Assembly (NCBI GenBank): GCA_945892755.1
Contig: CAMDDO010000001.1
Coordinates: 62,001 to 126,000 of the forward strand
Length of the DNA stretch: 64,000 nt
Reading direction: 5' to 3'
From: Rhizobium sp. Q54
GTDB taxonomy: Bacteria > Pseudomonadota > Alphaproteobacteria > UBA828
Positions 26,830-51,865 of this stretch are shown here, in pieces. Each line of letters starts with the position of its first letter. Positions within the stretch are counted from its first letter, which is position 1. The notes under the pieces are model-generated. The model did no database searches. It saw only the letters and a program-made list of their open reading frames with translations, and was not told the origin of the DNA. Position numbers and translations under genes: made by a program.

Positions 26830-28191
26830 ATGCGTAAGCACATCCGTTGCGGCAGGCTTTTCACCGGACTCTCGGACAAAGCCGAGAGGGATCAGACCAT
26901 CGTCATCAATGACGAGCGGATCGACTATGTCGGCCCAACCGCAGGCGCGCCGAAAGCGGCGCCGGGCGAACAGGTGGTCGATCATTCCAAGCACTTCGTG
27001 TTGCCCGGGCTGATCGACGTTCACGTCCATCTCGCTTATGGCAATTGCAAAACGGAAGAGGACATCGACCTCTACGCGCCGGTCGAATTTCGCGCGCTGC
27101 GCGGGCTCGAAGCAGCGCAGCGCGTGTTGAAGGCGGGCTTCACCTCGATCTGCGACCCGGCGACCAGCGGCCTGGTCTCGCCCTCGATTCGCGATGCGAT
27201 CGAGGCCAATTTGTTCGTCGGCCCGCGCGTCTCGGCCTCCGGCCCGCAAATCACCAACCGCCAGGGCCTGACCGACTGGTACCCGACCTGGATCGGCGTG
27301 CCCTCGACCGCGATCGGTGTGCTCTGCAAGGACGCCGCCGAAGGCGTCGCCGAAATCCGGAAAGAGGTGAAGGACGGCGTCGACTTCATCAAGATCGCCA
27401 TGGACGGCGATTCGATGAACCCGACAAGCAGCACGCTGACCGCCGGCTACAACCAGGAAGAAATCACCGCCATGGTGCGCGAGGCGCATCGCCTCGGCAA
27501 GAAGGTGGTGGTCCATGCGCGCGGCGATGAGGCAACGCTTTATTCGGCCCGCGCCGGCGTCGACGTGATCCTGCACGCCTCGTACATGACCGAGAAGACG
27601 CTTGAAGAAGTGGCGAAGAGCGGCGCGATGCTCTGCCCGTCCTATCTGCTCCTGGTCAACAATATCGATTTCACCCGGCCCGGCGATGGCGCCTATCCGG
27701 CCTTCCCCGACGCCCATAAGCGCGAGCTCGAGGCCGGCGCGAAAATCCACACGCTCGGCCGCAAGGCCGGCGTGAAATATCTGGTCGGCACGGATTCGGG
27801 CTTCGCCATCACGCCCTATGGCGAGTGGCATGCGCGCGAGCTTGAAACCTTCGTCAAATATTTCGGCTTCTCGGCCGCCGAGGCGATCAAATGCGCGACC
27901 GTCAACAATGGCATGTTCGTGCGCCATGCCGGCCATGTCGGCTCGCTCGAAAAAGGTCGCTTCGCCGATATCCTCGTGTTCGATGGCGACCCCTTGGCCG
28001 ATATCGCGCAATTGCAGGATCGCTCGCGCGTTCGCGAGATCTTCCTCGGCGGCGACGCGGTGACGCACGAGGTCAATCCGAAGGCGCATCGTTTGCGCTC
28101 GGAGTTCTCCTACCAAATGTGGAACGACGTCTATAGCCAGGCGCGTATCGCGGAACTGAAGCGCGAGCACACGCGCCACGCGGCCGAATAA
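26830..28191 (+). CDS. Metal-dependent amidohydrolase (imidazolonepropionase-like)
   Basis: LPGLIDVHVHLAYG, FIKIAMDGD, VVHARGDEA, ILHASYM, GTDSGFA. Confidence 0.9.
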   Translation: MRKHIRCGRLFTGLSDKAERDQTIVINDERIDYVGPTAGAPKAAPGEQVVDHSKHFVLPGLIDVHVHLAYGNCKTEEDIDLYAPVEFRALRGLEAAQRVLKAGFTSICDPATSGLVSPSIRDAIEANLFVGPRVSASGPQITNRQGLTDWYPTWIGVPSTAIGVLCKDAAEGVAEIRKEVKDGVDFIKIAMDGDSMNPTSSTLTAGYNQEEITAMVREAHRLGKKVVVHARGDEATLYSARAGVDVILHASYMTEKTLEEVAKSGAMLCPSYLLLVNNIDFTRPGDGAYPAFPDAHKRELEAGAKIHTLGRKAGVKYLVGTDSGFAITPYGEWHARELETFVKYFGFSAAEAIKCATVNNGMFVRHAGHVGSLEKGRFADILVFDGDPLADIAQLQDRSRVREIFLGGDAVTHEVNPKAHRLRSEFSYQMWNDVYSQARIAELKREHTRHAAE

Positions 28192-28210: not shown

Positions 28211-29335
28211 ATGGGAGAGCGGTGGGTCTTATCGGCAGATAGCCACGTCATCGAACCGAGCGATTTGTGGCAGAAGACGATTGGCAAGAAATGGGGCGAC
28301 AAGGTGCCCCATCTGGTCAATCAACATAAGGGCGTGAAGGCGAAGTTCTTCTTCACCGGGCACGAATATGTCCGAATCGATGAGATCGTCGAAGGCGATC
28401 CCGAGCTACAGGCAAAGCTTGTGGCGTCGGGCACGAAACCGAGCGTGCGCGTGCAGTGCATGGACGAAGACGGCGTTTGGGGCGAGATCGTCAACGCGAC
28501 CTGGACCCTCTATTCGCTGCGCATTCCGAACGACGATCTGGTGCGCGACGTCTGCCGCGCCTTCAACAACTGGCTGGCCGACTATTGCAAGGTTGCGCCG
28601 AAGCGGCTCTACGGCACCGCGATGGTGCACATGGAAGACGTCAACTGGGCCTGCAAGGAGCTCGAACGCGCCGCCAAACTCGGCCTCAAGAGCGTGCTGA
28701 TCAATTGCGACACGCGGCCGAAGTGGAAGCCCTATCAGGACAAGTCCTACGACAAGTTCTGGGCCCGCGCGCAAGAGCTGAACATGCCGGTGACGCTGCA
28801 CATCATCACCGGCAACGTCGTCGACCTGTTCACGCTCCATGGCGATCGGCGCATCAACATACCGCGCTATACGCTCGAACTGTTCAATGAAGCAGGCTGG
28901 ACGCTTGGCAATGAATTCATCTTCGGCGGCATTCTTGACCGCTTCCCAAAGCTGAAAGTTATTCTGTCCGAATACGAAGTCTCGTGGCTGCCGCATTGGC
29001 TGTTCCGCATGCGCCAGCTCCAGAAGAATTTCATGCCGGCGATGCGCATGCCCGAAATCAAGCGGCCGATCGACGACTACATGACCCAAGTGCATCACGG
29101 CCTGATCGACGATCCCTTGCTCGATGAGGCGCTCAAGCATGTTGACTCGAAGACGGTGATGTGGGGCTCGGACTTCCCGCACGCGCGCTGCACCTATCCG
29201 AATACGCACAAGGTGATCGATAAGCTTTATGGCCACCTCGACCGGAAGACGCGCGACGACATCACGATTTACAACTGCGCGCGCTTCTATGGCTTCGACT
29301 TGCCTGCGAGCCTGAGACGGCAGGCGGCGGAGTAG
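28211..29335 (+). CDS. Amidohydrolase_2 family TIM-barrel hydrolase/decarboxylase
   Basis: VLSADSHVIEPSDLW, YGTAMVHMEDVNWACKELERA, HIITGNV, VMWGSDFPHARCTYPN. Confidence 0.9.
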   Translation: MGERWVLSADSHVIEPSDLWQKTIGKKWGDKVPHLVNQHKGVKAKFFFTGHEYVRIDEIVEGDPELQAKLVASGTKPSVRVQCMDEDGVWGEIVNATWTLYSLRIPNDDLVRDVCRAFNNWLADYCKVAPKRLYGTAMVHMEDVNWACKELERAAKLGLKSVLINCDTRPKWKPYQDKSYDKFWARAQELNMPVTLHIITGNVVDLFTLHGDRRINIPRYTLELFNEAGWTLGNEFIFGGILDRFPKLKVILSEYEVSWLPHWLFRMRQLQKNFMPAMRMPEIKRPIDDYMTQVHHGLIDDPLLDEALKHVDSKTVMWGSDFPHARCTYPNTHKVIDKLYGHLDRKTRDDITIYNCARFYGFDLPASLRRQAAE

Positions 29336-30507: not shown

Positions 30508-31539
30508 CTAATCGCGCAGCGTCAACAACACCTTCTGCCGGTAATTGTCGGCGATTACGGCCAAGACCAGCAGAATGCCGACCACGATCATCTGCTGATA
30601 GGAGCCGATGCGCATGAGGTTCATGCCGTTCTGCACCAGAATGATGAAGATCGCGCCGAGTACGACATTGGCGAGCCGACCTGTACCACCGAAGAGACTC
30701 ACGCCGCCGATCGCGCAGGCCGCGATCGAGTTCAGCGGATAATCACTCCCGATATTCGATTCGCCGCTTTCAAGGCGTGCGGTCAGCATCAGCGCCGAGA
30801 CCGTCGTAATGGCGGCGCACACGACATAGGCCATGAACAAATAATAGCGCGTGCTGATGCCGGACAGCATCGAGGCCTTCAGATTGCCGCCAAGCGCATA
30901 AAAATATCGCCCCATGCGGGTCCAGGCCAACAGCACGTAGGTAATCACCACGAAGCCGATGGTGATCCAGATCGGCACCGGCACGCCGAGCGCCGAGCCA
31001 TAACCGAAGACGCCTGCGAATTCCTCGGGCATGCCATAGATCGGCGTGCCACCCGTGATGGTGAGCGCGATGCCGAAGACGATCGTCGACATGGCGAGCG
31101 TCATGATGAAAGGCGGCACGCGGAAGACCGCGACACCGACGCCGTTGATCGCTCCAACGATCAAGCCCGCGCCAAGCCCGGCCAGGCTGCCGAGGATGAT
31201 CGAGCCCCACACCGCCTCCTTGCCCGAGGCGTTGAAATGATCGACCATCACCATCGAGCTGATCACCGAAACGATGGCAAAGATGACGCCGACCGAAAGA
31301 TCGAGCCCGGCGGTCAGCAGCACAACCATTTGCGCCATCGCGACCATGACCAGATAGGTCGCCTGCCGGGCCACCAGCATGAAATTCTGCCCGGTCATGA
31401 AGGATTCGGTCGCGAAGGTGAAGATGATGATGGCGAAAACCAGAAACCACGGCAAAACACCGCCGCGCACGAACACCTGCGCAGCCACGCGCTCGATCGA
31501 ACCCATGAGTTCCACTTGCTTTCGCATGGCGCCGGCCAT
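30508..31539 (-). CDS. Sugar-type (RbsC-like) ABC transporter permease
   Basis: Polytopic; AGLDLSVGVIFAIVSVISSM, GGVSLFGGTGRLANVVLGAIFI; ORF extends to 31629 but MAGAMRKQ start is more plausible. Confidence 0.88.
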   Translation of the reverse strand: MAGAMRKQVELMGSIERVAAQVFVRGGVLPWFLVFAIIIFTFATESFMTGQNFMLVARQATYLVMVAMAQMVVLLTAGLDLSVGVIFAIVSVISSMVMVDHFNASGKEAVWGSIILGSLAGLGAGLIVGAINGVGVAVFRVPPFIMTLAMSTIVFGIALTITGGTPIYGMPEEFAGVFGYGSALGVPVPIWITIGFVVITYVLLAWTRMGRYFYALGGNLKASMLSGISTRYYLFMAYVVCAAITTVSALMLTARLESGESNIGSDYPLNSIAACAIGGVSLFGGTGRLANVVLGAIFIILVQNGMNLMRIGSYQQMIVVGILLVLAVIADNYRQKVLLTLRD

Positions 31540-31555
31540 CTCCCCGTCTCCCCAG

Positions 31556-33124
31556 CTAAACCGTTTGTTTTTCGAAGAAGTGGCCGAGAACGGCCTGCTC
31601 GCTGATCTCTGCCTTGGGCAGCTCGGCACGCAATTCGCCCCGATACATGACGTAGGCGCGATTGGTCAGATGGAGGATCTCCGGCAAATCGGAAGAGATC
31701 AACAGAATGCCGGCGCCGGCCTCACAAAGCGTCTTGATGAAGTTATAGATATGAACACGGGCACCGACATCGACGCCGACCGTCGGCTCATCGAAAATGA
31801 ACAGCTTTACGTCGCGCGCGAGTGATTTGCCGACCAGCACTTTTTGCTGATTGCCGCCTGAGAAATGCTCGAGCGCGCGCTCGACATTGGGCGGGTCGAG
31901 ATCGAGCCGGCGCACCAAGTCCTTCACCACCGTACGCTCATTGGCGCGACGCAAGAAAAAGCCGTTCGAGAACGTGCGCAGCCAAAGCGACGAAAGCGCG
32001 ATGTTCTCGCGCACGTTCTGCATCATCACCAGACCTTCTTGGCGACGATCCGACGGCAAATAGTAAAGCCCGCGATCGAGCATGCGGCGCGGGCCCAGCT
32101 TGTTGGTCTTGCGCACCTCATAGACCACCTGGCCATTGAAAGAGATGCGCCCCGCGCTGATTTTTTCCAAGCCAAAACAGGCGCGACCGATCTGTGATTT
32201 GCCTGAACCAACCAGGCCGGCGAGACCCACGATCTCGCCCGCGCGGACATTGATCGAGACGTCGCGCACGCCGCCATCGGCGGTCGACAAATTCTCGATC
32301 TGAAGCAGATTGTCCTTCGGCGCGAAGTGCACCGCGGGGAAGACTTGATCGATGACCCGGCCGGTCATGAGCTCAACCAGCCTTTGATCGCTGGCTTCCT
32401 CGACCCCGATGGTCGCGACGAACTTGCCGTCGCGCAGCACCGTGATGCGATCGCCGATGCGCTTGATTTCGTTCATCCGATGCGTGATGTAGATGATCCC
32501 GATGCCTTCTTTCTTGATCTGCTCGATCAGCGCGAACAGGCGATCGGTTTCGCGCTCGGTCAAGGAGGCCGTGGGTTCATCGAAAATCATGACGGATGGT
32601 TTGGTGCGAAACGCCTTGGCGATTTCGACCATTTGTTGCTGCGCGCGCGACAGATACATCACCAGGTCGCGCGGCTTGAGGTCGAAGCCGAGGCGATCGA
32701 GTACTTCGCGCGCCTGCCGGCGCAGGCCCACTTTGTCGAGCAGCGGGCCCTTGTGGACCTCGGAGCCGAGGAACAGATTGTCCTCGATGGAGAGTTGCGG
32801 CACCAGGGAGAACTCCTGGAATACCGCGCTAATGCCGAGCGCGCGCGCGTGGTGAACCGAGGAAATGCTGATCGGCTCGTCCTTGAAGAAGATTCGCCCG
32901 CCTGACGGCCGATGAACCCCAGCGATGATCTGAATCATCGTCGACTTGCCGGCCCCATTCTCGCCGAACAGGACGTGGACCTCGCCCGGTCGCACGTCGA
33001 AATTCACCTGATCGAGCGCGAGCGTGCCCGGGAACTGCTTGGAGATCGCCTCCAAGCGCAAAAGAACAGGAGCACCAGAACCTTTCGGTTCCGGGCTCCC
33101 AACATCATCGCTGACCATGGCCAT
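31556..33124 (-). CDS. Sugar-type (RbsA/MglA-like) tandem ABC ATPase
   Basis: FGENGAGKSTMIQII, SRAQQQMVEIAKAF, second half GLVGSGKSQIGRACFG and SGGNQQKVLVGKSLARDVKLFIFDEPTVGVDVG. Confidence 0.93.
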   Translation of the reverse strand: MAMVSDDVGSPEPKGSGAPVLLRLEAISKQFPGTLALDQVNFDVRPGEVHVLFGENGAGKSTMIQIIAGVHRPSGGRIFFKDEPISISSVHHARALGISAVFQEFSLVPQLSIEDNLFLGSEVHKGPLLDKVGLRRQAREVLDRLGFDLKPRDLVMYLSRAQQQMVEIAKAFRTKPSVMIFDEPTASLTERETDRLFALIEQIKKEGIGIIYITHRMNEIKRIGDRITVLRDGKFVATIGVEEASDQRLVELMTGRVIDQVFPAVHFAPKDNLLQIENLSTADGGVRDVSINVRAGEIVGLAGLVGSGKSQIGRACFGLEKISAGRISFNGQVVYEVRKTNKLGPRRMLDRGLYYLPSDRRQEGLVMMQNVRENIALSSLWLRTFSNGFFLRRANERTVVKDLVRRLDLDPPNVERALEHFSGGNQQKVLVGKSLARDVKLFIFDEPTVGVDVGARVHIYNFIKTLCEAGAGILLISSDLPEILHLTNRAYVMYRGELRAELPKAEISEQAVLGHFFEKQTV

Positions 33125-34350: not shown

Positions 34351-34899
34351 GTTGCTATTGCCCTCCCATTCATTGGCATTTGAGCGTCCGCCTCGCTCAG
34401 TCAGATGCGAAAGTCAGCATCGTTAGCGTGGCCCGTCAGATACCCGTTGTCAACGATGCTCAGGTCTTTGCAAGGAAAAGCAAAACTAGCCAATCATGCG
34501 TACATGCCGAACGCTCCGGGCGCTGCGTTTGCGTAGCACTTGCCCGGTCTGCGATTGGCCCTGAATCTGTCGGCTAGTCCCGCGTGAACCCGTGACGGCG
34601 TGCGCCAGAGGCGCCGTTTTCGCGATTGTGTCACTTCGGTTTGCATTGTCTTTTCGTTGAGGGCGTGCGCTCGGCAACGGCGACGCAACAACGCCTAAAA
34701 TTGAGTCGCGCGCGGCGCTCGGAAAATAATCGCTCAAGATCTCATAGAATTGGTCCGACCAAATCGAATGCTCGCTCCAGGAATCCGGCTTGTTCTTATT
34801 GAAAGCGAGCGCCCCCACGCCTACGCTGAATCTGTCGTCGACAAAAGTTTGACGACGCCCTGAGGGGCAAGCGGTCGCGCAATAAATCGGGAGGGACGC

Positions 34900-35316
34900 A
34901 TGGCGACCAAGACAGGCGTGCAGCTCAATCTTGGCTATACGGCAACCGACGATTTCATCACCCGCACCTGGATCCTGCCGCTTCTGGCCGACAAGGCGAA
35001 GCGCGCGAAATTGATCGAGGAGCATCGCAACAATCCGGTCGGCAAGCCGGGCAAGGCCGGCAAGGCGGCGGTACAGCACAGCGACGATCTCGCGCGCGTC
35101 ATCGACAAATTTCGGCGCGCGCCGCAAGCCGGCAAATATGTTCGCATCGCGGTGGTGCCGCACAAGGAATACGCCATCGGCGTGCTTTCGGGCGTCCGCG
35201 GCAAGCCGGTCAAGGTGCTCGAGAACAAGACCTACAAGAGCGAAGACGAGTGCGAACACGCGATCTTCGTGCGGCGCGTCGAAGACTTCTTGGCCGCCTA
35301 TCGCGTGAAAAAATAA
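34900..35316 (+). CDS. Putative N,N-dimethylformamidase small (alpha) subunit
   Basis: 138 aa basic protein with GGAGGG-type RBS immediately upstream of the large-subunit-like gene; size and position match DmfA1; the sequence itself is not diagnostic by eye. Confidence 0.6.
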   Translation: MATKTGVQLNLGYTATDDFITRTWILPLLADKAKRAKLIEEHRNNPVGKPGKAGKAAVQHSDDLARVIDKFRRAPQAGKYVRIAVVPHKEYAIGVLSGVRGKPVKVLENKTYKSEDECEHAIFVRRVEDFLAAYRVKK

Positions 35317-35398
35317 CTGGCACCCGACGCAACCGGCTTTGGCGCGGCGGCGCTGGCACAGCGCGGCGCGCGCCTGACGACATCAGGGAGGGACAAGC

Positions 35399-37759
35399 AT
35401 GCTTCGGATCGTGGGCTATTCGGATTGTTATTCGCTCCACCCCGGCGACACCATCAAGTTCTATGTCAATTCGGAGAAGGGTGAGTCGTATCAAGCTGAC
35501 ATCGTGCGCCTGATTCACGGCGACACCAACCCGGAGGGACCGGGCTTCAAGGAAGAAGTCAAAAAGACCCCGGTCAGCGCCAAATACAAGGGCCGCAACC
35601 AGAAGATCCATGGCGGCTCCTATGTGATCGTGCCGAACGATCCGCGCTTCAATCTTCAGAGCTTCACGCTGCAGGCGATGATTTTCCCGACCACGCCCGA
35701 AAAAGGCATGCAGGGCATCCTGACCAAATGGGACCATGGCAAGAAGGCGGGCTATGGCCTGATCATTGACGACAAGGGCTGCCTCGCGGTCGGCATCGCG
35801 AACGACAAGGGCAAGATGACCATGCTCTCGAGCGGCAAGAAGCTCCTGCGCAAGGTCTGGTACCTCGCCGCCGCGAGCTATGACGCGGAATCGGGCAAGC
35901 TCAAGCTTTATCAAATTCCGATCCCGACCTCGGCCAATGGCGGGCTTGGCATGTCGCTCGTGCATCCCTTGAGCGAAACCTCGCGCATCGTTTCGCAGGA
36001 CGCCAAGCTCGGCGCACCCGCCGCCAATGACGCGCCGTTTCTGATGGGCGCCTGGGCGGAAAAGCCGCGCTCCGGCCGACGCATTTTCGGGGCGCATTAC
36101 AAGGAAGCAACCAGCCCGGTCGAGCTCCCGGTTCAAGGCGGCTGTTATAACGGCAAGATCGACCGGCCGCGGCTCGCCCGCCGCGCCCTCAGTCACGCCG
36201 AGATCGATGCGCTCGCGCGCGGCTACAGATATTGCCCGAGCGAATTGCGCAATGAGGTGATCGCGGCGTGGGATTTCCACGCCAATATCAGCAACAACAT
36301 CGCCTCGACCTACATCATCGACACCTCGACCAGTTTGTTGAACGGCCACGCGGTCAATCTGCCGGCGCGCGGCATGACCGGCTATAACTGGACCGCGGAT
36401 GAGATCGTCTATCATCACAAGCCCGAGGAATATGGCGCGATCCATTTCCACGATGACGACATCGACGATGCGCGTTGGGAAGTCGATTTCGAATTCACCG
36501 TGCCGGCTGGTTGGAAAAGCGGCGTCTATGCGGCGCGGCTCCGCATCAATGGGGAGTCGACGCCCGAGACCGAGGACTATGTGCCGTTCTTCCTCCGTCC
36601 GCCCAAGGGCACGACCACGGCCGACATCTGCTTCATCGTGCCGCTGCAAAGCTACCTCGCCTATTCGAACGACAATCTCGGCGCGAACTCGGTCGCGGCC
36701 CAGTTGCTCGGTGGCAAAGTGCCAATCTTGCAGGCGTCCGACCTGTTCCTCAACGAACACCGCGAATATGGCCTTTCGACATATTCATGCCACTCGGATG
36801 GCTCGGGCGTGTGCTATTCCTCGCGCCTGCGGCCCATTCTCAACATGCGGCCCAAATATCGCCACTGGCTGTCGCCTTCGCTCTGGCAGCTCAATGGCGA
36901 TCTGCACTTGACCGACTGGCTCGAGGAGATGGGCTTCAATTTCGACGTCCACACCGATGAGGATTTGCAACGCGAGGGCGTCGACCTGCTGAAAAAATAC
37001 CGCGGGGTGCTGACCGGCACGCACCCGGAATATGCCTCCGAGAAAATGCTCGACGCCTATGAGGCCTATCAGCAGCATGGCGGGCGTTGGCTCTATCTCG
37101 GCGCCGACGGCTTCTATTGGGTGACCGAATTCCACCCCGACAATTACAACATCGTCGAAGTGCGCAAGGGTGAGGCCGGCACGCGGGCCTGGACCGCCAA
37201 TCCGGGCGAATACAACAACGCCTTCGATGGCAAATATGGCGGCATGTGGCGCGCGCGCGGACGTATCCCGACCAAGGTGTGCGGCCTCACCTTCACCGGC
37301 TATGGCTTCGACGTGTCGACTTATTATCGCCGCATGCCGGATAGCGAACGGCCCGAATGCGCCTGGATGTTCAACGGCATCGGCAAGGACGAGATCATCG
37401 GCGATTTCGGCCTGGTTGGCGGCGGCGCGGCAGGGCTCGAGATCGATCGCTATGACCTCGAATTCGGCACGCCGCACAATGCCTATCTGCTCGGACGCTC
37501 GGAAGGTCATACCGATCTGATGATGCAGGTAAACGAAGAAATTCATTTCACCTGTCGTGGCTATTATGGCGGCGGCGATGAGAACCCGATGATCCGTGCC
37601 GACATGATCTACTACAAGACGCCGAATGACGGCGGCGTATTCGCGCCCGGCTCGCTTGCCTGGTGCGGCTCGCTCTCGCACAACAATTACAAGAACAACG
37701 TCTCCAAACTGATGGAGAACGTGATCAAGGGTTTCCTGAAGCCGGGCCCCTTGCCCTGA
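35399..37759 (+). CDS. N,N-dimethylformamidase large (beta) subunit-like protein
   Basis: 786 aa; MLRIVGYSDCYSLHPGDTIKFYVNSEKGESYQADIVRLIHGDTNPEGPGFKEE, SYLAYSNDN, HREYGLSTYSCHSDGSGVCYSSRLRP, LHLTDWLEEMGFNFDVHTDEDL typical of this family. Confidence 0.85.
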   Translation: MLRIVGYSDCYSLHPGDTIKFYVNSEKGESYQADIVRLIHGDTNPEGPGFKEEVKKTPVSAKYKGRNQKIHGGSYVIVPNDPRFNLQSFTLQAMIFPTTPEKGMQGILTKWDHGKKAGYGLIIDDKGCLAVGIANDKGKMTMLSSGKKLLRKVWYLAAASYDAESGKLKLYQIPIPTSANGGLGMSLVHPLSETSRIVSQDAKLGAPAANDAPFLMGAWAEKPRSGRRIFGAHYKEATSPVELPVQGGCYNGKIDRPRLARRALSHAEIDALARGYRYCPSELRNEVIAAWDFHANISNNIASTYIIDTSTSLLNGHAVNLPARGMTGYNWTADEIVYHHKPEEYGAIHFHDDDIDDARWEVDFEFTVPAGWKSGVYAARLRINGESTPETEDYVPFFLRPPKGTTTADICFIVPLQSYLAYSNDNLGANSVAAQLLGGKVPILQASDLFLNEHREYGLSTYSCHSDGSGVCYSSRLRPILNMRPKYRHWLSPSLWQLNGDLHLTDWLEEMGFNFDVHTDEDLQREGVDLLKKYRGVLTGTHPEYASEKMLDAYEAYQQHGGRWLYLGADGFYWVTEFHPDNYNIVEVRKGEAGTRAWTANPGEYNNAFDGKYGGMWRARGRIPTKVCGLTFTGYGFDVSTYYRRMPDSERPECAWMFNGIGKDEIIGDFGLVGGGAAGLEIDRYDLEFGTPHNAYLLGRSEGHTDLMMQVNEEIHFTCRGYYGGGDENPMIRADMIYYKTPNDGGVFAPGSLAWCGSLSHNNYKNNVSKLMENVIKGFLKPGPLP

Positions 37760-37780
37760 GCCTTTGGGCTCGCGATGATA

Positions 37781-37810
37781 GCGGGGCGGCTCGCAAGGGC
37801 CGCCCCGTTT
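37781..37810 (+). terminator. Rho-independent terminator-like hairpin
   Basis: CGGGGCGGC-TCGCAAGG-GCCGCCCCG followed by TTT, 20-50 nt after the large-subunit stop. Confidence 0.65.
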
Positions 37811-37837
37811 GATTTCGAGATGCGGGAGAGAGAGGCC

Positions 37838-38197
37838 ATGCCAACCGATCCTGATCGCTGGCTCAAGCCAGGCTACACGCCCTCCGCCAAAGTGCGGCCG
37901 ACCGATCTCGACCGGCGGAGTCCGCGTTTGCCCGAGCTTCTCAAGGGGCTCGACCGAGATAAGCTCGCCGAGTTCGCCCAGGTGCTGTTTCAGTTGAACG
38001 GTTTTCGGCGCGGACCCGTGAAGGGCTATTACGTCGTGGTCGAGACCAAGCCCGGCGTGGAATGGAAAGTCGGCCAGCTTTGCGCCGATCCTGACGCACC
38101 GCTCCATATCGTCGATGAGCGCAGCTTCGATAACAGCGATGAACCGCTGAAACTCGCCGAAGCGCTGCGCGCGGCCGACCCGCCGCGCTATGGCTGA
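37838..38197 (+). CDS. Conserved-looking hypothetical protein, coupled to downstream monooxygenase
   Basis: MPTDPDRWLKPGYTPSAKVRPTDLDRRSPRLPELLKGL...; stop overlaps the start of the 38190 gene by 8 nt. Confidence 0.6.
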   Translation: MPTDPDRWLKPGYTPSAKVRPTDLDRRSPRLPELLKGLDRDKLAEFAQVLFQLNGFRRGPVKGYYVVVETKPGVEWKVGQLCADPDAPLHIVDERSFDNSDEPLKLAEALRAADPPRYG

Positions 38198-39359
38198 ACG
38201 TCACGTCGAGATCGCCGGCGCAGGTTTCTCCGGCCTCACGATCGCGACCGCGCTCGCGCAACGTGGCTGGTCGGTGCGCGTGCATGAGCGCGCGCCCGAA
38301 GTGCGCGCCTTCGGCGCCGGCATTTGGTTGTGGGACAATGGCATCCGCGTGCTGAACGCGATCGGCGCGGCCGATGAGGCGCTCGACGGTTGCACCGAAG
38401 CCAAGGTCTGGGAAAGCTGGGACCGCACAGGCGACCTGATCGATCGCGTGCAATTCGGCATCGGCGGCGGCTCACGGGTTTTTTGCGTCGTGCGCCAGCA
38501 ATTACTGATGGCGATCCTGCACGCGGCGGAGCGCGCCGGTGTCGAGGTGTGCACCAATTCGGAAGCGGTTGGCGCGACGGCGGACGGCGCGCTCAAGCTC
38601 GCGAGCGGCGAAACGCTCAAGGCCGACCTCGTGATCGGCGCCGATGGTATCCGCTCGAAGGTGCGCGATTCGCTTGGCCTCTTGAAGCGCCGCCATGTTC
38701 ATATCGACGGTGCGATTCGCGTGTTGATCCCGCGCACCGCCGAGGAATACGAAACCGAGGAAGGCCGCAAAATCCGCGAATGGTGGTATGGCTCGCGCCG
38801 CCTGCTCTATACACCCTGCAGCAAGGACGTGGTCTATCTCTGCTTCACCATGATGGCGCGTGACAAGGAGGCGGCCGAGATTCCCTTGCGCAAGGAAGTC
38901 TGGGCCCGGAGCTTTCCCCAACTGAAGCACATGATCGATCGGGTCGGCACCGACGGCCGTTATGATCGCTTCGAGACCTCGAGACTGCATCGCTGGTCGA
39001 AGGGCCGGGTCGCGATCATGGGTGATGCCGCGCATTCCATGTCGCCGGGCCTCGGCCAAGGCGGCGGCTCATCGCTCGTTAGCGCGCTTACCTTGCCGGC
39101 GCTGATTGACGAGATGGGCGCGATCGAGCCCGCGCTTGAGGCCTGGGAAACAGCGCTTCGCCCCTTGGCCGAACACACCCAGCGCTGGTCGAAGATCACC
39201 TGGCCCTTGATTCCCTGGCCGGCCTGGGTTGCGCGGCGCTATTACGCCTTCCCGCTGGCGAAAGGCTGGATCGCCAAGCAGCGCATGCGCCCATCGCTCC
39301 ACGTCGCGAAGGGAACGGAGGGTCACAGGCTCTGGGTGCCAACAAGAGCGGGCGTGTAA
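38190..39359 (+). CDS. FAD-dependent aromatic monooxygenase (salicylate-hydroxylase-like)
   Basis: IAGAGFSGLTIATALAQRGWSVRVHERA, DLVIGADGIRSKVRDSLG, VAIMGDAAHSMSPGLGQGG. Confidence 0.92.
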   Translation: MAERHVEIAGAGFSGLTIATALAQRGWSVRVHERAPEVRAFGAGIWLWDNGIRVLNAIGAADEALDGCTEAKVWESWDRTGDLIDRVQFGIGGGSRVFCVVRQQLLMAILHAAERAGVEVCTNSEAVGATADGALKLASGETLKADLVIGADGIRSKVRDSLGLLKRRHVHIDGAIRVLIPRTAEEYETEEGRKIREWWYGSRRLLYTPCSKDVVYLCFTMMARDKEAAEIPLRKEVWARSFPQLKHMIDRVGTDGRYDRFETSRLHRWSKGRVAIMGDAAHSMSPGLGQGGGSSLVSALTLPALIDEMGAIEPALEAWETALRPLAEHTQRWSKITWPLIPWPAWVARRYYAFPLAKGWIAKQRMRPSLHVAKGTEGHRLWVPTRAGV

Positions 39360-39479: not shown

Positions 39480-39929
39480 TCACGCCTTGCGGTGAGTCTT
39501 GGCGAGCGCGATCAGCGGGTGCGTCGGTGACATCTGGAATTTGATCAGCAGCTCGCGCGCCAGCATGTCGCGGTCTTGCTGGTTGTCGGGCAGCTTCAAG
39601 TTCGCCGGCACCTGAACCCAGCCATTGATGTTGCGGTCGAACACCGCCGGCCGCCCCTCCTCATAGCCCATGTGCACGTCTTCGAGCCAATTGAGGTCAG
39701 GCCAGCCCATGATCTCGATGTATTTTTTCAGGAACGGCGTGATGCGCGCATAGTCCGGCACGAGGTTCACGTCATAGCGATAGCCGATGTGCTGGCCGAT
39801 CTCCTTCTCGCGCGCGGTGTCGAGGCCCTTCGACTTCAGGAAATAGTCGACATCGGTCTTTTTCGCGCCTTTGGTTTTAGCCGCGGGCTTCTTCGCGGGC
39901 TTGGCCTTGAGCTTGATGACTTTCGCCAT
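39480..39929 (-). CDS. Hypothetical protein with Lys/Ala-rich N-terminal tail, at 3' end of the mgs/glx-like cluster
   Basis: MAKVIKLKAKPAKKPAAKTKGAKKTDVDYFLKSKGLDTAREKEIGQHIGYRYDVNLVPDYARITPFLKKYIEIMGWPDLNWLEDVHMGYEEGRP; same strand, 9-nt gap. Confidence 0.65.
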   Translation of the reverse strand: MAKVIKLKAKPAKKPAAKTKGAKKTDVDYFLKSKGLDTAREKEIGQHIGYRYDVNLVPDYARITPFLKKYIEIMGWPDLNWLEDVHMGYEEGRPAVFDRNINGWVQVPANLKLPDNQQDRDMLARELLIKFQMSPTHPLIALAKTHRKA

Positions 39930-39938
39930 GGTCGGCTC

Positions 39939-41333
39939 CTAATAGCGCGTCATGTCGGGGCGGCCGACCGTGTGCTGCGTGCCGGCGAGCGGCACCTGCG
40001 CCATGGCCGAGGCCTCCATGGTGAGGGCCGCCAGATCTTCCGGCTCGAGTGAATGGACGTTGGTCTTGCCGCAGGCGCGCGCCATCATCTGGCACTCGAG
40101 CGTGAGCGTATGCAGGAAGTTGAACACCCGCACCGCCGCTTCATCGGGGTCGAGGCGTTTTCTCAGAAGCGGATCTTGCGTGGTCACGCCAACCGGGCAG
40201 CGACCCGTGTGGCAGTGATAGCAATGGCCGGCCGGCACGCCGACCTCGGCCTCGTAATCGGCCTCGGGAATATCCTTGTTGCAATTGAGCGCGATCAGCG
40301 CGGCATGACCGATCGCGACAGCGTCGGCGCCGAGCGCCAGCGCCTTCGCGACGTCGCCGCCATTCCTGATGCCGCCGGCATAGACCAGCGAGATCGAGCC
40401 TGACGCGCCGAGGTCGTCGAGCGCCTTCCGCGCTTGGCGGATTGCCGCGATTCCGGGCACGCCGGTTTCCTCGGTCGCGATGTGTGGCCCGGCCCCGGTG
40501 CCGCCCTCCATGCCGTCGATATAGATCGAATCAGGCCCGGTCTTGATCGCCATGCGCACGTCGTCGTAAACCCGCGCGGCGCCGAGCTTCAATTGAATCG
40601 GAATTTGGTGATCAGTCGCCTCGCGAATTTCCTGGATCTTGAGCGCGAGATCATCAGGCCCGAGCCAATCGGGATGGCGCGCCGGCGAGCGCTGGTCGAT
40701 ACCGGCCGGCAGCGAGCGCATCTCGGCCACCTGATCGGTCACCTTCTGGCCCATCAAATGGCCGCCGAGCCCGACCTTGCAGCCCTGGCCGATGAAGAAC
40801 TCGCAGGCATCCGCCAGGCGCAAATGGTTTGGGTTGAAGCCATAGCGCGATTGAATGCACTGATAGAACCATTTCGACGAATAGCGCCGCTCATCCGGGA
40901 TCATGCCGCCTTCGCCCGAGCAGGTCGCGGTGCCGGCCATGGTGGCGCCACGCGCCAACGCCATTTTTGCTTCATATGAGAGCGCGCCGAAACTCATGCC
41001 CGTGATGTAAACCGGAATGTCGAGCACGAGCGGGCGCTTGGCCTTTGGCCCGATCACCGTCGTGGTTTCGCACTTCTCGCGATAACCTTCGATCACGAAG
41101 CGGGTCAGCGTGCCGGGCAAGAAGGTCAGATCATCCCATGTCGGGGTCTTCTTGAAGATCGAGAAGCCGCGCATGCGATAGCGGCCGAGCTCAGCCTTGA
41201 TGTGGATGTCGTCCATCACCTCAGGCGTGAAGATGCGGCTATGCCCGAGCAGAGATTTATTGCGCTCTGGCTTCGCGCTGCGTTTGACGGTTTTTTTCGT
41301 CCGCGCCTCGAGCGCGCGTCTTTTGGTTGCCAT
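39939..41333 (-). CDS. FMN-binding glutamate synthase-family protein (GlxD/MgsC-like)
   Basis: GMSFGALSYEAKMALARGATMAGTATCSGEGGMIPDER, PIQLKLGAARVYDDVR, DGMEGGTGAGPHIATEETGVP. Confidence 0.9.
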   Translation of the reverse strand: MATKRRALEARTKKTVKRSAKPERNKSLLGHSRIFTPEVMDDIHIKAELGRYRMRGFSIFKKTPTWDDLTFLPGTLTRFVIEGYREKCETTTVIGPKAKRPLVLDIPVYITGMSFGALSYEAKMALARGATMAGTATCSGEGGMIPDERRYSSKWFYQCIQSRYGFNPNHLRLADACEFFIGQGCKVGLGGHLMGQKVTDQVAEMRSLPAGIDQRSPARHPDWLGPDDLALKIQEIREATDHQIPIQLKLGAARVYDDVRMAIKTGPDSIYIDGMEGGTGAGPHIATEETGVPGIAAIRQARKALDDLGASGSISLVYAGGIRNGGDVAKALALGADAVAIGHAALIALNCNKDIPEADYEAEVGVPAGHCYHCHTGRCPVGVTTQDPLLRKRLDPDEAAVRVFNFLHTLTLECQMMARACGKTNVHSLEPEDLAALTMEASAMAQVPLAGTQHTVGRPDMTRY

Positions 41334-41371
41334 GGCTAACTCCTTCGCGGGCGAACGCGCCCGAAAGCGGT

Positions 41372-42211
41372 CTACAACGCGATCTTCTTCTCGGTCGGCT
41401 CGAGCGTGTCGTAATTCCAGAGCTGCCGGCCGGCGACGATCTTTTTCAAATTCTCCGCGCCATTCGGGGCCTTTAGGCCATAGGTGCCGAGCTTGCGCTT
41501 GAGCCAGGCGATCTCGGTCTCGTTAAGTTCGCCCGGCACCGCATCGACGCCGAGCGAGCCGATCTTGCCGCCGACATAAATCGTGCCGTCATACATCGAA
41601 TCGCCGAGATTCTTGCCGGTATCGCCGAGGATGATCATGCGGCCGCGCTGCATCATGAAGCCGCAGAACGAGCCCGCCCGGCCGCCGATGATGATGGTGC
41701 CGCCCTTCTGGTCGATGCCGACACGCGCGCCGACATCGCCCTTGCAGACGAGATCGCCGCCACGGATCGCGGCGCCAAAGGTCGAGCCGGCGTTCTTTTC
41801 TATCAACACCACGCCAGCCATCATGTTTTCGGCGCAAGACCAGCCGACCCGGCCCGTGATGTGCACCATCGGCCCGTCGAGCAGGCCGCAACCGAAATAG
41901 CCGAGACTGCCCTCGAAATCGAGCTTGAGCCGGTTCAGCAGCCCAACGCCGATGCCGTGCTTGGCCATGGGGTTCTGCACGACGATATGGCCATAGCCCT
42001 CGGCCATCAGCGCGCGAATGCGCGCATTGATCGCTTGCGCGGTCATGGCCGCCGCATCGAACGCGGCGCGGCGCTTCAAATCGACGACCACCGCATCGGC
42101 ATAGACGAAGTTCTCGCCCTGCGCGGCGGAAAAAAAAGTCTGTTGCGTGCGACCGCGCAGCGATTCTTGATGTTCGGCGCCGGCGAGCGCCTTTACCTCT
42201 AGCTTTGCCAT
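41372..42211 (-). CDS. GXGXG-domain glutamate synthase-like protein (GlxC/MgsB-like)
   Basis: Beta-helix GXGXG repeats: FGCGLLDGPMVHITGRVGWSCAENMMAGVVLIEKNAGSTFGAAIRGGDLVCKGDVGARVGIDQKGGTIIIGGRAG. Confidence 0.9.
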   Translation of the reverse strand: MAKLEVKALAGAEHQESLRGRTQQTFFSAAQGENFVYADAVVVDLKRRAAFDAAAMTAQAINARIRALMAEGYGHIVVQNPMAKHGIGVGLLNRLKLDFEGSLGYFGCGLLDGPMVHITGRVGWSCAENMMAGVVLIEKNAGSTFGAAIRGGDLVCKGDVGARVGIDQKGGTIIIGGRAGSFCGFMMQRGRMIILGDTGKNLGDSMYDGTIYVGGKIGSLGVDAVPGELNETEIAWLKRKLGTYGLKAPNGAENLKKIVAGRQLWNYDTLEPTEKKIAL

Positions 42212-43155
42212 ACGCGGACCTCGCCGTCATAGGGATCCCAGGTGTCGATTTCCTTCGGGAAGATGCTGCGAATCGCCACTTCCTCGGAGGCGAGCGCGAC
42301 CATGTCGTCGCTCTCGAACAAAACCATCGGCTTCGCCGCCATGGTGTCCTTCGCCATGCCGAGCTGGTCGGAGGTCGCCACCAAATAGGTGAACACGCCA
42401 TCGAGCTCGGCGACGGAGGCCGTCATCGCGTCTTTCAACTTGGCGCCCTGGTGCATGCGATCGGCCAAATAAACCGCGATCAATTCCGAATCGCAGTTCG
42501 AGACGAAGCGGTGGCCGCGATGCTCAAGCTCGCGACGGAATTTCCAATAATTGGTCAGCTGGCCGTTGTGCACGACCGAGACATCCATGAACGGATAGGC
42601 CCAATAGGGATGGGCCGAGCGGATATCGACATCCGATTCGGTCGCCATGCGGGTGTGGCCAATCGCGTGCGTGCCTTTGAACTGGCTGAGCTTGTATTCG
42701 CCCGAAACACGTTCGGCATCGCCCAAATCCTTGATCAACTCGAGCGCATGGCCGAGCGAGAGGATTTCAGCGCCTTCGATGTCCTCGATATAGTCGGCGA
42801 ACTTCTTATAGGCATCGTGCGAATTCATCGTGCCCGGCTTGAAGCGAAGCTGATAGCGGAAGGCGTATTCGGTGGCGGGCTCATGCGCCACGATCTCGCC
42901 GCCAAATTGCGCGATGCGCTTGTCGACCTCGGCGCGCCGCTCGACGACCTGGCGGTGGATCTCGAAGCCTTTGCTCATGTCTTCCTGTTCGGCGACCTTG
43001 AAGCGCATGACGAAATCGCCGTCGCTTGGCGTGCCATAAAGCGCGAAGCCGGTCGAATCCGGGCCTCGGTGTTTGAGCGCGCGTAGCATCGAGGTCATCT
43101 CGAAGCCAACATCGGCGCGCGCGCCGCGATGAATAACGCCTGCTATGCCACACAT
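42199..43155 (-). CDS. Class II glutamine amidotransferase (GlxB/MgsA-like)
   Basis: MCGIAGVIHRG N-terminal Cys2, LKHRGPDSTGFALYG, HTRMATESDVDIRSAHPYW, VVHNGQLTNYWKFRRELEHRGHRF. Confidence 0.92.
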   Translation of the reverse strand: MCGIAGVIHRGARADVGFEMTSMLRALKHRGPDSTGFALYGTPSDGDFVMRFKVAEQEDMSKGFEIHRQVVERRAEVDKRIAQFGGEIVAHEPATEYAFRYQLRFKPGTMNSHDAYKKFADYIEDIEGAEILSLGHALELIKDLGDAERVSGEYKLSQFKGTHAIGHTRMATESDVDIRSAHPYWAYPFMDVSVVHNGQLTNYWKFRRELEHRGHRFVSNCDSELIAVYLADRMHQGAKLKDAMTASVAELDGVFTYLVATSDQLGMAKDTMAAKPMVLFESDDMVALASEEVAIRSIFPKEIDTWDPYDGEVRVWQS

Positions 43156-43186
43156 GGTCTGTAACTCCGCGAAGCGCCCGCCACGA

Positions 43187-44653
43187 TCACGGCAGGCAAT
43201 CGAGATAGGTGTTGAGATCCCATTCGGTGACGGTTGAGAGGAACTTCTCCCACTCGTCGCGTTTGTAATGCATATAGACCCGAAACATTTCATCCGGCAT
43301 GGCGCGTTTGATCACCTCATCACGCTCCAGCGCAGCGAGCGAATCGCCAAGCGACATCGGCAACTTCTTGACCTGCTTGCCGGCCTCCATCGCTTGATAG
43401 ATGTTGCGCTCCTCCGGCTCGCCCGGATCGATTGCGTTATCGATGCCATCGTCGAACGCCATGAGAATCGCGCTCGCCATCAAATAAGGATTCACCATCG
43501 AATCGACCGCGCGATACTCGAAGCGCCCGGGCGCCGATATGCGCAATCCGCAGGTGCGGTTCTGATAGCCCCAATCGGCGAAGATCGGCGCCCAGAAGCC
43601 GGCATCCCACAAGCGCCGATAGGAATTCGCGGTCGAGCAGCCGATCGCGGTCAAGGCCGGCAAATGCTTGATGATGCCGCCGATCGACATCAGGCCATAT
43701 TTGCCCGGCTTATTGCTGCCCTTGGTGTCGGGCATGAAGGTATTGTCGCCGCCCTTGGCGTATTGAAAGACGCTCGGCAATCCAGGCAGCGTGCTATGGC
43801 CGAGATTGTTGAGTTTGTCCGCGCCGCCTTTCCAGAGCGAAATATTGTGGTGGCAGCCATTGGCCGAAACGCCCATGAAGGGCTTGGTCATGAAGCACGC
43901 GATCAAATTGTTCTCGCGCGCGACCTGGGCGCAGATTTGCCGATAGGTGGTGAGCCGGTCGGCGGTCCTGAGCGCGTCGTCGAACATGAAATTGAGCTCG
44001 AGCTGGCCCGGCGCGTCTTCATGGTCGCCCTGAATCATGTCGAGACCCATGGCGCGCGAATAATCGATGACCTTCAAGAAGATCGGCCGGAGCGCCTCGA
44101 ACTGATCGATGTGATAGCAATTCGGCTTGGTCATGCCGCCAGCCATTTGACCATCGGGGCCGCGCTTCAGCCACATCATCTCGGGCTCGCAGCCATGACG
44201 CATTTGCAGCCCGTGCTTCTTTTGGAAGGCGTCGTGGTGCAGGCGCAAATTGCCGCGGCAATCCGAGGTCAGATGGCCGCCCGGATTGACCTTTTCCTCG
44301 CGATTGCGGAAGCAGGTGCAGAAAACGCGCGCGACCCGTTTGTCCCACGGCAATTGCACGAAGGTGTCAGGGTCGGGCAAGCCGATCAGCTCGGACGCCT
44401 CGGGGCCGTAGCCGATATAATTCTTGTGGCGATCGACATAGAGGTTCGCGGTCGAGCCATAGACCAGCTGAAAGCCGCGCTCGGCGATCGCTTCCCAATG
44501 GTCCGCCGGTATGCCCTTGCCGACGATGCGGCCGGTGACCGAGACGAACTGATAATAGATGTAGGTGACGCCAAGCTCGTCGATCTTGGCTCGAACCTGT
44601 TTGATTTCCTCGGCGCGTCCTGGCCGCGCGACATGGGCCTCAAGATCAGTCAT
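43187..44653 (-). CDS. GlnT/type III glutamine synthetase-like enzyme (possible gamma-glutamylmethylamide synthetase)
   Basis: GGHLTSDCRGNLRLHHDAFQKKHGLQMRHGCEPEMMW, QGDHEDAPGQLELNF, NGCHHNISLW, EYRAVDSMVNPYLMASAIL; immediate upstream of the glx/mgs-like trio. Confidence 0.85.
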   Translation of the reverse strand: MTDLEAHVARPGRAEEIKQVRAKIDELGVTYIYYQFVSVTGRIVGKGIPADHWEAIAERGFQLVYGSTANLYVDRHKNYIGYGPEASELIGLPDPDTFVQLPWDKRVARVFCTCFRNREEKVNPGGHLTSDCRGNLRLHHDAFQKKHGLQMRHGCEPEMMWLKRGPDGQMAGGMTKPNCYHIDQFEALRPIFLKVIDYSRAMGLDMIQGDHEDAPGQLELNFMFDDALRTADRLTTYRQICAQVARENNLIACFMTKPFMGVSANGCHHNISLWKGGADKLNNLGHSTLPGLPSVFQYAKGGDNTFMPDTKGSNKPGKYGLMSIGGIIKHLPALTAIGCSTANSYRRLWDAGFWAPIFADWGYQNRTCGLRISAPGRFEYRAVDSMVNPYLMASAILMAFDDGIDNAIDPGEPEERNIYQAMEAGKQVKKLPMSLGDSLAALERDEVIKRAMPDEMFRVYMHYKRDEWEKFLSTVTEWDLNTYLDCLP

Positions 44654-44734
44654 CCCGTCATCCCCCACGATTGATTCTTAGACCGCCGCGTCATGGCGCG
44701 ACGCTTTGCACGCCGTCGCGCTAGCGGCCTCTGC

Positions 44735-46078
44735 TCAACTCCATGGGAACGGGCTGTTCGAGACCGGGTGGAGCCGACCCGCCGCGAAACGCGACTGCCG
44801 AAACGGCTCCATGAGCCCGCTCTTTTCGCCCAGAATTTCCTCGGCGGCGAGCTTGCCGACCGCCATCATCTTGTAGCCGTGGTTGGAGTCCGCGATGACG
44901 TAGCAATTCTCGCGGAACACGTCGAACACCGGGAAGCTGTCGGGCGTGAACGCGCCAATGCCGCCCGAAGGCTCCATGCGATATTTGCCCGACTGGCCTT
45001 CATAGCGCTTCTGGCAGAAGGCGAGCGCGGAGCACCACATATCGGCGAATTTCTCGTCGACCACGAATTCGGGCGAGTCGACGCCATAGGGATCGATTGC
45101 GACCTGATCGGCCGGCCGCTCGACCTTCCAAGGCGAGGCCCCGCCCTGAATGCCGTTGAAGTTGAAATCGGGCTTATAGTAGATGCCCCAAAGCTTATCC
45201 GTGATCAGCCGCCCATCCAGATCGGAATGGAGCGGCGCGTCGGTATCGACGTGCATCACGGGCGGCATGGCGCCATCATTGGTCAGACCATATTGGGGCT
45301 CGACGCCAAGAGTGCCCTCTTCCAGGCACCAGAAGGTCCACATCGGTACGTCACGGTGAACCTTTCCGTCGCGGCCCTTCACCTCGATCGCATCGGGCAG
45401 GTCGAGCATCTTCCAAATGCGGGGGATCCAAGGCCCGGCGCCGACCACGACATGATCGGTCCGGATCGTTCCGCCGCTGGTCTCGACCGCGGTGATCGCG
45501 CCGGAATTGCTGCCGCTCTTGAAGCCGGTCACCTCGACCCCGGTGAGGATGCGAACGCCCGCCGCTTCGGCCTTGTCGGCCAAGCGATAGATCGAGGCGC
45601 GGTTATTGGCGTAGCCGCCCTTCTTCTCGTGCAGGACCGAGGTGATGCCCTTGGCCTGCCAATCGCTGAAGATGCCCTTCATGTAGGACGTGCACGCCGC
45701 TTCGCCCTCGATGAAGCTCGAGGTATAGCCGATATCCCGCTGTTCCCGGGCGATCTGGGCCACGTTCTCGTGCATGCTCTCGGGGCTGATCTGCATGTAG
45801 CCGACCGGGTGATAGCTATAGCCCTTGGCGTCGCTTTCCCATTCCGCGACGCATTCGGCCATCAGCGCACGCATGGCGGGCTGAAAATAGTTGTTGCGGA
45901 TCACGCCGCAGGCGATGCCGGACGCGCCTGAGGCGATGCCGCCCTTGTCGAGCACGACGATGTCCTGACCGGCGGTCTTGCCCTTGGCCTTGAGCTTGAG
46001 TGCGAGGTGATAGGCGGTGCTCAAGCCGTGAATGCCGGCGCCGATCACGACATATTTCGCTTGCGTGGGAAACGCCAT
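44735..46078 (-). CDS. FAD-dependent oxidoreductase, sarcosine oxidase beta/MgdA-like
   Basis: YVVIGAGIHGLSTAYHLALKL, GIASGASGIACGVIRNNYFQPAM, VVVGAGPWIPRIW; same strand as the GlnT-like gene. Confidence 0.85.
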   Translation of the reverse strand: MAFPTQAKYVVIGAGIHGLSTAYHLALKLKAKGKTAGQDIVVLDKGGIASGASGIACGVIRNNYFQPAMRALMAECVAEWESDAKGYSYHPVGYMQISPESMHENVAQIAREQRDIGYTSSFIEGEAACTSYMKGIFSDWQAKGITSVLHEKKGGYANNRASIYRLADKAEAAGVRILTGVEVTGFKSGSNSGAITAVETSGGTIRTDHVVVGAGPWIPRIWKMLDLPDAIEVKGRDGKVHRDVPMWTFWCLEEGTLGVEPQYGLTNDGAMPPVMHVDTDAPLHSDLDGRLITDKLWGIYYKPDFNFNGIQGGASPWKVERPADQVAIDPYGVDSPEFVVDEKFADMWCSALAFCQKRYEGQSGKYRMEPSGGIGAFTPDSFPVFDVFRENCYVIADSNHGYKMMAVGKLAAEEILGEKSGLMEPFRQSRFAAGRLHPVSNSPFPWS

Positions 46079-46162
46079 CTTCCGACCCGCCATCTGGCTC
46101 GTGGCGCCAAGACCGGCGCCTGATGAACGCAATAATAGGGTGAACCGCCCGAAATATGTCAA

Positions 46163-46181
46163 GCCAATTTGCGCCAATTGG
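46163..46181. promoter_or_regulatory. Candidate operator: GCCAATT repeated at 10-bp spacing
   Basis: GCCAATTTGCGCCAATTGG in the gap between the oxidoreductase (-) and the GntR regulator (+). Confidence 0.3.
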
Positions 46182-46261
46182 TTCCGTGCGGTGTAATTTT
46201 CTGGCATTCTGCGTCGCAATGAATCAGAATGGCTAGTCCAATGTCAGGAAGGCGTCGCCCC

Positions 46262-46981: not shown

Positions 46982-47170
46982 GGCGAACAACGCCCGAATC
47001 CGGGCGGCCGGGCGCGGCCGCGGCTATCCGTTCACGGCCACGATTTTCGATTTGACGACGGATTCGCGGCGAATAGCGAAGCTCGGTCTTGCCGAGTGCA
47101 CCCCATTTGCGCTTCCATCCCGACAATCAGCGCGGGGAAACCCGCAATAGCCCAACAGGGAGGGGAGCGC

Positions 47171-47929: not shown

Positions 47930-47999
47930 ACCGATGCGCGGCGCATTGGCGGTACCGCTTGCTGATTAGCCTGTTCGACAATGAGGGAGAGAGAACAAT

Positions 48000-48860: not shown

Positions 48861-48871
48861 GGGAGAAAAAA

Positions 48872-51828: not shown

Positions 51829-51865
51829 TGCAGAAGCGGGCCGGCACGAGGCAGAGCGCACGCGC

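Follow-up and report, generated by a model that had tools for sequence, protein, structure and literature searches.

We wondered if a pair of adjacent genes in Rhizobium sp. Q54 encodes an N,N-dimethylformamidase (DMFase) and, if so, whether N,N-dimethylformamide (DMF) is the compound that is hydrolyzed. Enzymes of this kind are known from solvent degraders, where they act on xenobiotics. The locus lies within a stretch of 64,000 nucleotides, all of which was analyzed here (the window). The original prediction was that a 138-aa protein and a 786-aa protein make up a two-subunit DMFase-like enzyme, encoded in small-large order, and that a divergent importer forms a unit for uptake and hydrolysis with them. 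The coordinates and + strand of both genes agree with the ORF list (Table 1). We refer to the 138-aa protein as small1 and to the product of the gene that follows the large subunit gene as small2.

Table 1. Features surrounding the DMFase-family genes, in window coordinates
Feature	Position	Strand	Basis
Two amidohydrolases	26830-28191 and 28211-29335	+	PF01979 and PF04909
ABC permease, BPD_transp_2	30508..31629	-	PF02653 2e-22
Ribose-type ABC ATPase, 522 aa	31556..33124	-	ABC_tran twice; AraG/RbsA-like below cut-offs
TorT-like periplasmic substrate-binding protein, 397 aa	33157..34350	-	PRK10936, TIGR02955 and PDB matches
Divergent intergenic region, importer vs enzyme genes	34351..34899	.	549 bp
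small1, DMFase-type small subunit, 138 aa	34900..35316	+	6lvb_B phmmer, family profile, Foldseek
DMFase-family large subunit, 786 aa	35399..37759	+	6lvb_A E 8e-187, PF20254 1.8e-94, residue mapping
small2, diverged second small subunit, likely 119 aa	37838..38197 (open frame from 37775)	+	Profile match, HMM, 77/77 loci
FAD-dependent monooxygenase, accessory	38190..39359	+	FAD_binding_3; overlaps small2 stop
mgsC-like FMN glutamate-synthase domain protein	39939..41333	-	55% to P. aminovorans homolog
mgsB-like GXGXG domain protein	41372..42211	-	37.5% to P. aminovorans homolog
mgsA-like class II glutamine amidotransferase	42199..43293	-	30% to P. aminovorans homolog
Glutamine-synthetase-like amine ligase, 493 aa	43187..44668	-	PDB matches; 33% to P. 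aminovorans GlnT
DAO-type FAD oxidoreductase, possible amine-block member	44735..46219	-	PF01266 1e-35

Family and active site of the enzyme

In a PDB search, the large subunit aligned over its whole length to residues 5-760 of 6lvb_A, the large chain of Paracoccus DMFase, and it also matched the Pfam family DMFA2_C. It is 41-43% identical to DMFases that have been linked to DMF use. The homologous large chain of N-acetyl-(R)-beta-phenylalanine acylase (8huy) was found as well, at 445 bits, a weaker match than that to the DMFase. The iron of the Paracoccus enzyme is held by Y399, Y440, and E521, and its Y440A, E521A, and H519A variants are inactive (PMC7686228). Residue mapping placed the corresponding ligands in the window protein at Y422, Y462, and E544, with none missing, which bears out the Tyr/Tyr/Glu iron site that had been proposed. 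The same mapping identified H542 as the counterpart of H519, F717 as the counterpart of F693, and E681 as the equivalent of E684. The three ligands and the histidine are unchanged in all 63 aligned DMFase-family sequences. On these similarities, the product of the large subunit gene almost certainly belongs to the iron amidase/DMFase class.

Two other positions may bear on specificity. F693 of the neighboring subunit narrows the pocket of Paracoccus DMFase and is said to restrict larger amides, and N547 is called essential in a figure legend (PMC7686228). In the alignment of 63 family sequences, the F693 position is invariant across the 31 sequences of the clade that contains the window enzyme and varies outside of it. 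The N547 position is occupied by D570 in the window and by Asp in 20 of the 31 clade sequences; the pAMI2 and Methylobacterium DM1 enzymes have Asn here, and Asp is found in the pAMI5 homolog, which has no established link to DMF use (PMC4543880).

The assignment of small1 as the small subunit also held. No Pfam family was found for it, and its sole PDB match was the DMFase small subunit 6lvb_B (phmmer E 1.6e-5); no small subunit of 8HUY was among its PDB matches. A profile of the small1 family matched 6lvb_B at 1.3e-10, and the AF2 model of small1 matched 6lvv_B by Foldseek (E 2.2e-6, prob 1.00). Both the small1 and large subunit ORFs display strong third-position GC bias, have a GGGAGGGAC motif shortly before the ATG, and show a dN/dS of ~0.09 against a same-genus genome. 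A same-genus ortholog of the large subunit (L045 949-3306) contains an in-frame TAA at codon 63, reflecting either a broken gene or an assembly error.

A probable second small subunit gene

A strictly two-subunit DMFase would be expected to have a single small subunit gene and Asn at position 547. The window has D570 at that position and a further gene, small2, directly downstream of the large subunit gene. The small2 ORF (37775-38197) had no match in Pfam or NCBIfam. When aligned with two Aminobacter orthologs, it matched the small subunit family in a profile comparison at E 3e-8, and larger alignments gave E 1.6e-8. An HMM built from 34 small2 homologs recovered, at up to 42.8 bits, the small subunits encoded upstream at other DMFase loci; over 80 genome loci, the 30 weaker matches listed all fell on small1 ORFs, and none of 12,580 shuffled ORFs was matched. 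On the basis of these profile matches and HMM results, we rejected the idea that the ORF is an unrelated gene. Its start is probably at 37838, as judged from an RBS-like GGGAGAGAGAGG and the length of its orthologs.

We found that AF2 models of small1 and small2 (the input alignment for which was made without two rows from plasmid records) share a common core of helix - three strands - helix. The small2 model is without the two N-terminal helices of small1, which contact the large subunits. A fold search with the small2 model returned no significant match, with 6lvv_B and 6lvb_B third and fourth in the list; the claim of homology therefore rests on the sequence profiles, plus the shared topology. 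The small2 profile did not recover 6lvb_B from the PDB, and an intermediate small subunit (L032) reached it at E 0.11 only.

The conservation of small2 is strict. Among the genome loci, 77 were evaluable in that they were not cut by a contig end, and small1, the large subunit, and small2 are all present in 77/77 of these loci of the window clade. The gene order is small1-large-small2 in 68, large-small2-small1 in eight, and includes an extra small1 in one, such that small2 stays beside the large subunit in two gene orders and across classes of Proteobacteria. Its dN/dS of 0.14 indicates purifying selection. Other DMFase paralogs that we examined, including four more in the window genome, have one small subunit or none. 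The prediction of two subunits was thus right about the large subunit and small1 but incomplete, as every evaluable relative in the clade has a second small subunit gene.

Small1 would be the classical small subunit; in the solved homolog, a long N-terminal helix of this subunit wedges between two large subunits. Small2, with the core and without the wedge, would probably be a second, non-equivalent subunit or a cap at the substrate entrance, and we consider it probable that it is a working subunit of the enzyme. Alternatively, small2 could be a separate protein, perhaps a regulator or a chaperone, whose resemblance to the small subunit core is a coincidence. The absent contact helices and the lack of a significant fold match for its model would agree with this, but its position directly beside the large subunit at all evaluable loci, in either order and in several classes of Proteobacteria, makes a separate protein unlikely. 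The downstream FAD monooxygenase was ruled out as a core part of the unit, being absent from L045 and the remaining loci.

The importer and the distribution of the three genes

The importer had been predicted to diverge from the enzyme genes across a gap of roughly 550 bp, in good agreement with the interval found. This gap contains one sigma-70-like site on the + strand (34701-34730), which is not evidence of function. The binding protein exceeded the NCBIfam cut-off of PRK10936 (287 bits, cut-off 200) but fell below that of the TIGR02955 TorT model (214 bits, cut-off 310), and its PDB matches included 4yhs_A (1.9e-81) and TorT 3o1h (3.8e-40). Because the listed permease ORF overlaps that of the ATPase by 74 bp, the true permease start is probably downstream.

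The proposed link between import and hydrolysis is upheld by three observations. In two genomes of another genus (G014 and G018), the genes for the binding protein, ATPase, permease, small1, large subunit, and small2 follow one another in this order on one strand. Within the family, all ten genomes with the orthologous enzyme have an ortholog of the binding protein (66-80%; one is incomplete because its contig ends), compared with 1/11 of those without the enzyme, namely G001, which is 67% complete (Fisher p 3e-5, ignoring the relatedness of the genomes). Finally, a binding protein and ATPase of the same kind (54-55%) are found ~5 kb from three Thioglobus-like loci. At most SAR11 loci, an importer of the window kind is not nearby. 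The importer is, we conclude, very likely coupled to the enzyme. That it instead transports another compound, such as TMAO or a sugar, and lies here incidentally is suggested by the pairing of a TorT-like binding protein with a sugar-type importer; given the single operon in G014 and G018, the phyletic match, and the recurrence beside Thioglobus-like loci, we regard this as improbable, and for TMAO the TIGR02955 score counts against it as well. The linkage offers a direct handle on the substrate, through the ligand of the binding protein.

To see how widely the three genes occur, we used the clade alignment to search 84,980 species genomes, which yielded 191 relatives; none was found among viral contigs. 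The best 80 of the 191 include many SAR11/Pelagibacteraceae single cells (72-74% identity), AG-337-type Alphaproteobacteria (68%), which we read as HIMB59 relatives, and Thioglobus-like and other Gammaproteobacteria, as well as lake and groundwater MAGs. In a phylogenetic tree, the window enzyme fell inside a supported clade of 31 rows with the Aminobacter plasmid enzymes in a sister group, separate from the Paracoccus and Methylobacterium DMFases. The known DmfA1-DmfA2 enzymes (Paracoccus sp. strain DMF, PDB 6LVB; P. aminophilus pAMI2; Methylobacterium DM1) share with the window the small-large order, the homologous large subunit, the Tyr/Tyr/Glu/His site, F693, and small1, whereas the second small subunit gene, the importer, Asp at the N547 position, and the separate clade set the window apart, as does the lack of a detected dimethylamine monooxygenase.

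The Aminobacter niigataensis enzymes (DMFA1 plasmid p1 and MD1 plasmid pcAMD1) are closer, with large subunits of 56-57% identity and both small1 and small2 in the window order. Unlike the window, these loci have a urea/branched-chain-type importer, a flotillin (DMFA1) or LuxR regulator (MD1), and enzymes with Asn at the N547 position and Tyr at the F693 position. On the DMFA1 plasmid, the flotillin gene is directly upstream of the three genes (L009 9226-10992) and the rhodopsin context is absent.

One of the relatives, locus L097, comes from SAG AG-390-L03, which served as reference genome in a paper on flotillin-associated rhodopsin (FAR; PMC10308929). The FAR cluster was described as ten same-strand genes, among them an "N,N-dimethylformamidase" and an "inner membrane translocator" (PMC10308929). 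We find at L097 ten same-strand genes encoding a rhodopsin, flotillin, 129-aa protein, alpha/beta hydrolase, small1, large subunit, small2, sodium symporter, Fe-alcohol dehydrogenase, and MBL-fold protein. The FAR-cluster DMFase genes of SAR11, HIMB59, and Pseudothioglobus (PMC10308929) belong to the same clade, with 68-74% identity and the same trio. The window clade is the one to which the published "N,N-dimethylformamidase" belongs. The "inner membrane translocator" (L097 9553-9978 and other FAR clusters) is probably small1, based on elimination and on a Halalkalicoccus small subunit that carries the identical product name; such a misreading would alter how the FAR cluster is interpreted. 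Thioglobus-like loci have a TorT-like importer nearby, as in the window. In contrast to the FAR clusters, the window encodes amine assimilation and an importer that is divergent from the enzyme genes. No flotillin match was detected in the window genome, in a search with no positive control among the genomes covered; elsewhere, the trio of this clade lies inside FAR clusters.

Several further observations were made among the relatives. Two gammaproteobacterial genomes have window-type and Aminobacter-type large subunits close together, at L049 10001 and 17121 and at L060 9503-16161, the latter in the order small1-large-small1-large-small2. The trio is also present on a MAG contig titled Klebsiella pneumoniae (L046, CAMAXW010000032.1), which clusters among environmental gammaproteobacteria and is probably mislabeled. 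The window genome encodes five DMFase-type large subunits (the others at C1:14863, C25, C32, and C75; loci L002-L005), and genomes of its family (G001-G021) encode up to nine, which makes this an expanded family, although it is commonly regarded as rare.

Substrate and fate of the amine

The original reading thus stands as to family. DMF itself appears an unlikely substrate, and the caveat that came with the prediction, that another amide may be hydrolyzed, fits the data. Were this a true DMFase for growth on DMF, the cell would import DMF, hydrolyze it to formate and dimethylamine, and demethylate the dimethylamine. The identity to DMFases linked to DMF use is in keeping with this, as is the suggestive name of the Aminobacter strain with the closest plasmid match, DMFA1; a literature search found no papers on that strain, and a paper on strain MD1 does not mention DMF. 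We nevertheless consider DMF quite unlikely because the window enzymes form a separate clade, are conserved in pelagic oligotrophs such as SAR11, and have Asp at the N547 position, and because no dimethylamine monooxygenase marker scored above cut-off in the 22 genomes searched, the window genome included. DMF has, moreover, been present on earth only since 1893 (PMC7686228). The lack of a detected dimethylamine monooxygenase argues against DMF, the product of which is dimethylamine, and for an amide that releases a primary amine, unless dimethylamine is broken down by some unrecognized route; likewise, the presence of the trio in abundant ocean bacteria suggests a natural N-alkyl amide rather than a solvent. 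The catalytic efficiency of Paracoccus DMFase is ~24-fold higher on N-methylformamide than on DMF (PMC7686228). An N-alkyl amide yielding a primary amine such as methylamine fits the data better than DMF, and we lean toward an N-alkyl, probably N-methyl, amide as the natural substrate.

The genes on the far side of the FAD monooxygenase speak to the amine. Putative amine-handling genes span 39480-46219, and they include the same split glutamate-synthase parts as the N-methylglutamate pathway (mgsABC, gmaS) together with a glutamine-synthetase-like ligase. The listed start of the mgsA-like ORF, which overlaps the ligase, is probably too early. The ligase matched a glutamate-methylamine ligase (9qur, 1.7e-50) and a GmaS-type enzyme (7cql, 3e-52) in the PDB, with glutamine synthetases scoring similarly. 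The block differs from the N-methylglutamate pathway in the 33% identity of its ligase to GlnT/GmaS, the 30-37.5% identity of its mgsA- and mgsB-like proteins, and the absence of dehydrogenase genes next to it; since the ligase is distant from GmaS, we do not name the block outright after that pathway. A closer GmaS copy (61%) is encoded with SoxD on contig C69 of the window genome.

Similar mgsABC-like blocks are found near the enzyme in the same-genus locus L045 and in a groundwater gammaproteobacterium (L049). In 22 related and hence not independent genomes, we counted 13 cases of an mgsC-like gene and a DMFase gene separated by no more than 15 kb, compared with at most 2.5 expected. The window genome has a further instance (L167, G000:C75, 5013-15531), in which the genes that follow a second, non-orthologous DMFase paralog encode an ABC ATPase, mgsABC-like proteins, and a ligase resembling glutamine synthetase. 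That the block is amine-assimilating is well supported. Methylamine as its amine is a guess, given the distance of the ligase from GmaS.

A different possibility is that the enzyme and importer act on something other than an N-methyl amide, be it a primary amide, a different N-alkyl amide, or an N-acyl amino acid. The family does include the N-acetyl-(R)-beta-phenylalanine acylase, and the best relatives of the ligase are encoded close to glutamine synthetases, an aldehyde dehydrogenase, and an amidotransferase, a setting like that of polyamine-type gamma-glutamylation. Two amidohydrolases are also linked to the locus; homologs of these (69% and 67%) adjoin the trio in G018, and they possibly belong to the pathway of the enzyme. 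Against such substrates, all clade sequences keep the phenylalanine that reportedly restricts larger amides in Paracoccus DMFase, and mgsC-like genes are repeatedly close to DMFase genes. We regard this possibility as real, if doubtful.

Returning to an N-methyl or related N-alkyl amide, a reasonably probable account of the whole locus would run as follows. The TorT-like periplasmic protein would bind a small N-alkyl amide, which the ribose-type ABC importer would take up. In the cell, the DMFase-family enzyme, with its two small subunits, would hydrolyze the amide at a mononuclear iron held by the mapped Tyr/Tyr/Glu ligands. With help from H542, the reaction would yield an amine and a carboxylate, which for a formamide substrate would be formate. 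This amine, most simply methylamine, may then pass to the adjacent ligase and N-methylglutamate-synthase-like proteins.

The window clade would then be a natural version of DMFase with an extra conserved subunit, found in very abundant ocean bacteria and in lake and groundwater relatives, and the importer link would bear on the role of the FAR cluster. We tentatively propose, as a less likely extension, that an amidase with two non-equivalent small subunits and a TorT-like importer constitutes an uptake-hydrolysis route for an unrecognized natural N-methyl amide, and that the trio is the metabolic core of FAR clusters in SAR11, HIMB59, and Thioglobus. If so, the FAR cluster would be a module for scavenging amides and not, in the main, a system for membrane structure.

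Two additional features of the window were observed. A 149-aa ORF beside the mgsC-like gene (39480-39929) has no Pfam or NCBIfam match and is found beside mgsC-like genes in L045 (89%) and L049 (79%) as well. The window also encodes molybdenum hydroxylases of the CO-dehydrogenase/xanthine-dehydrogenase type at two loci (47096-54014 and 59724-62090), which include accessory genes for AAA and VWA proteins.
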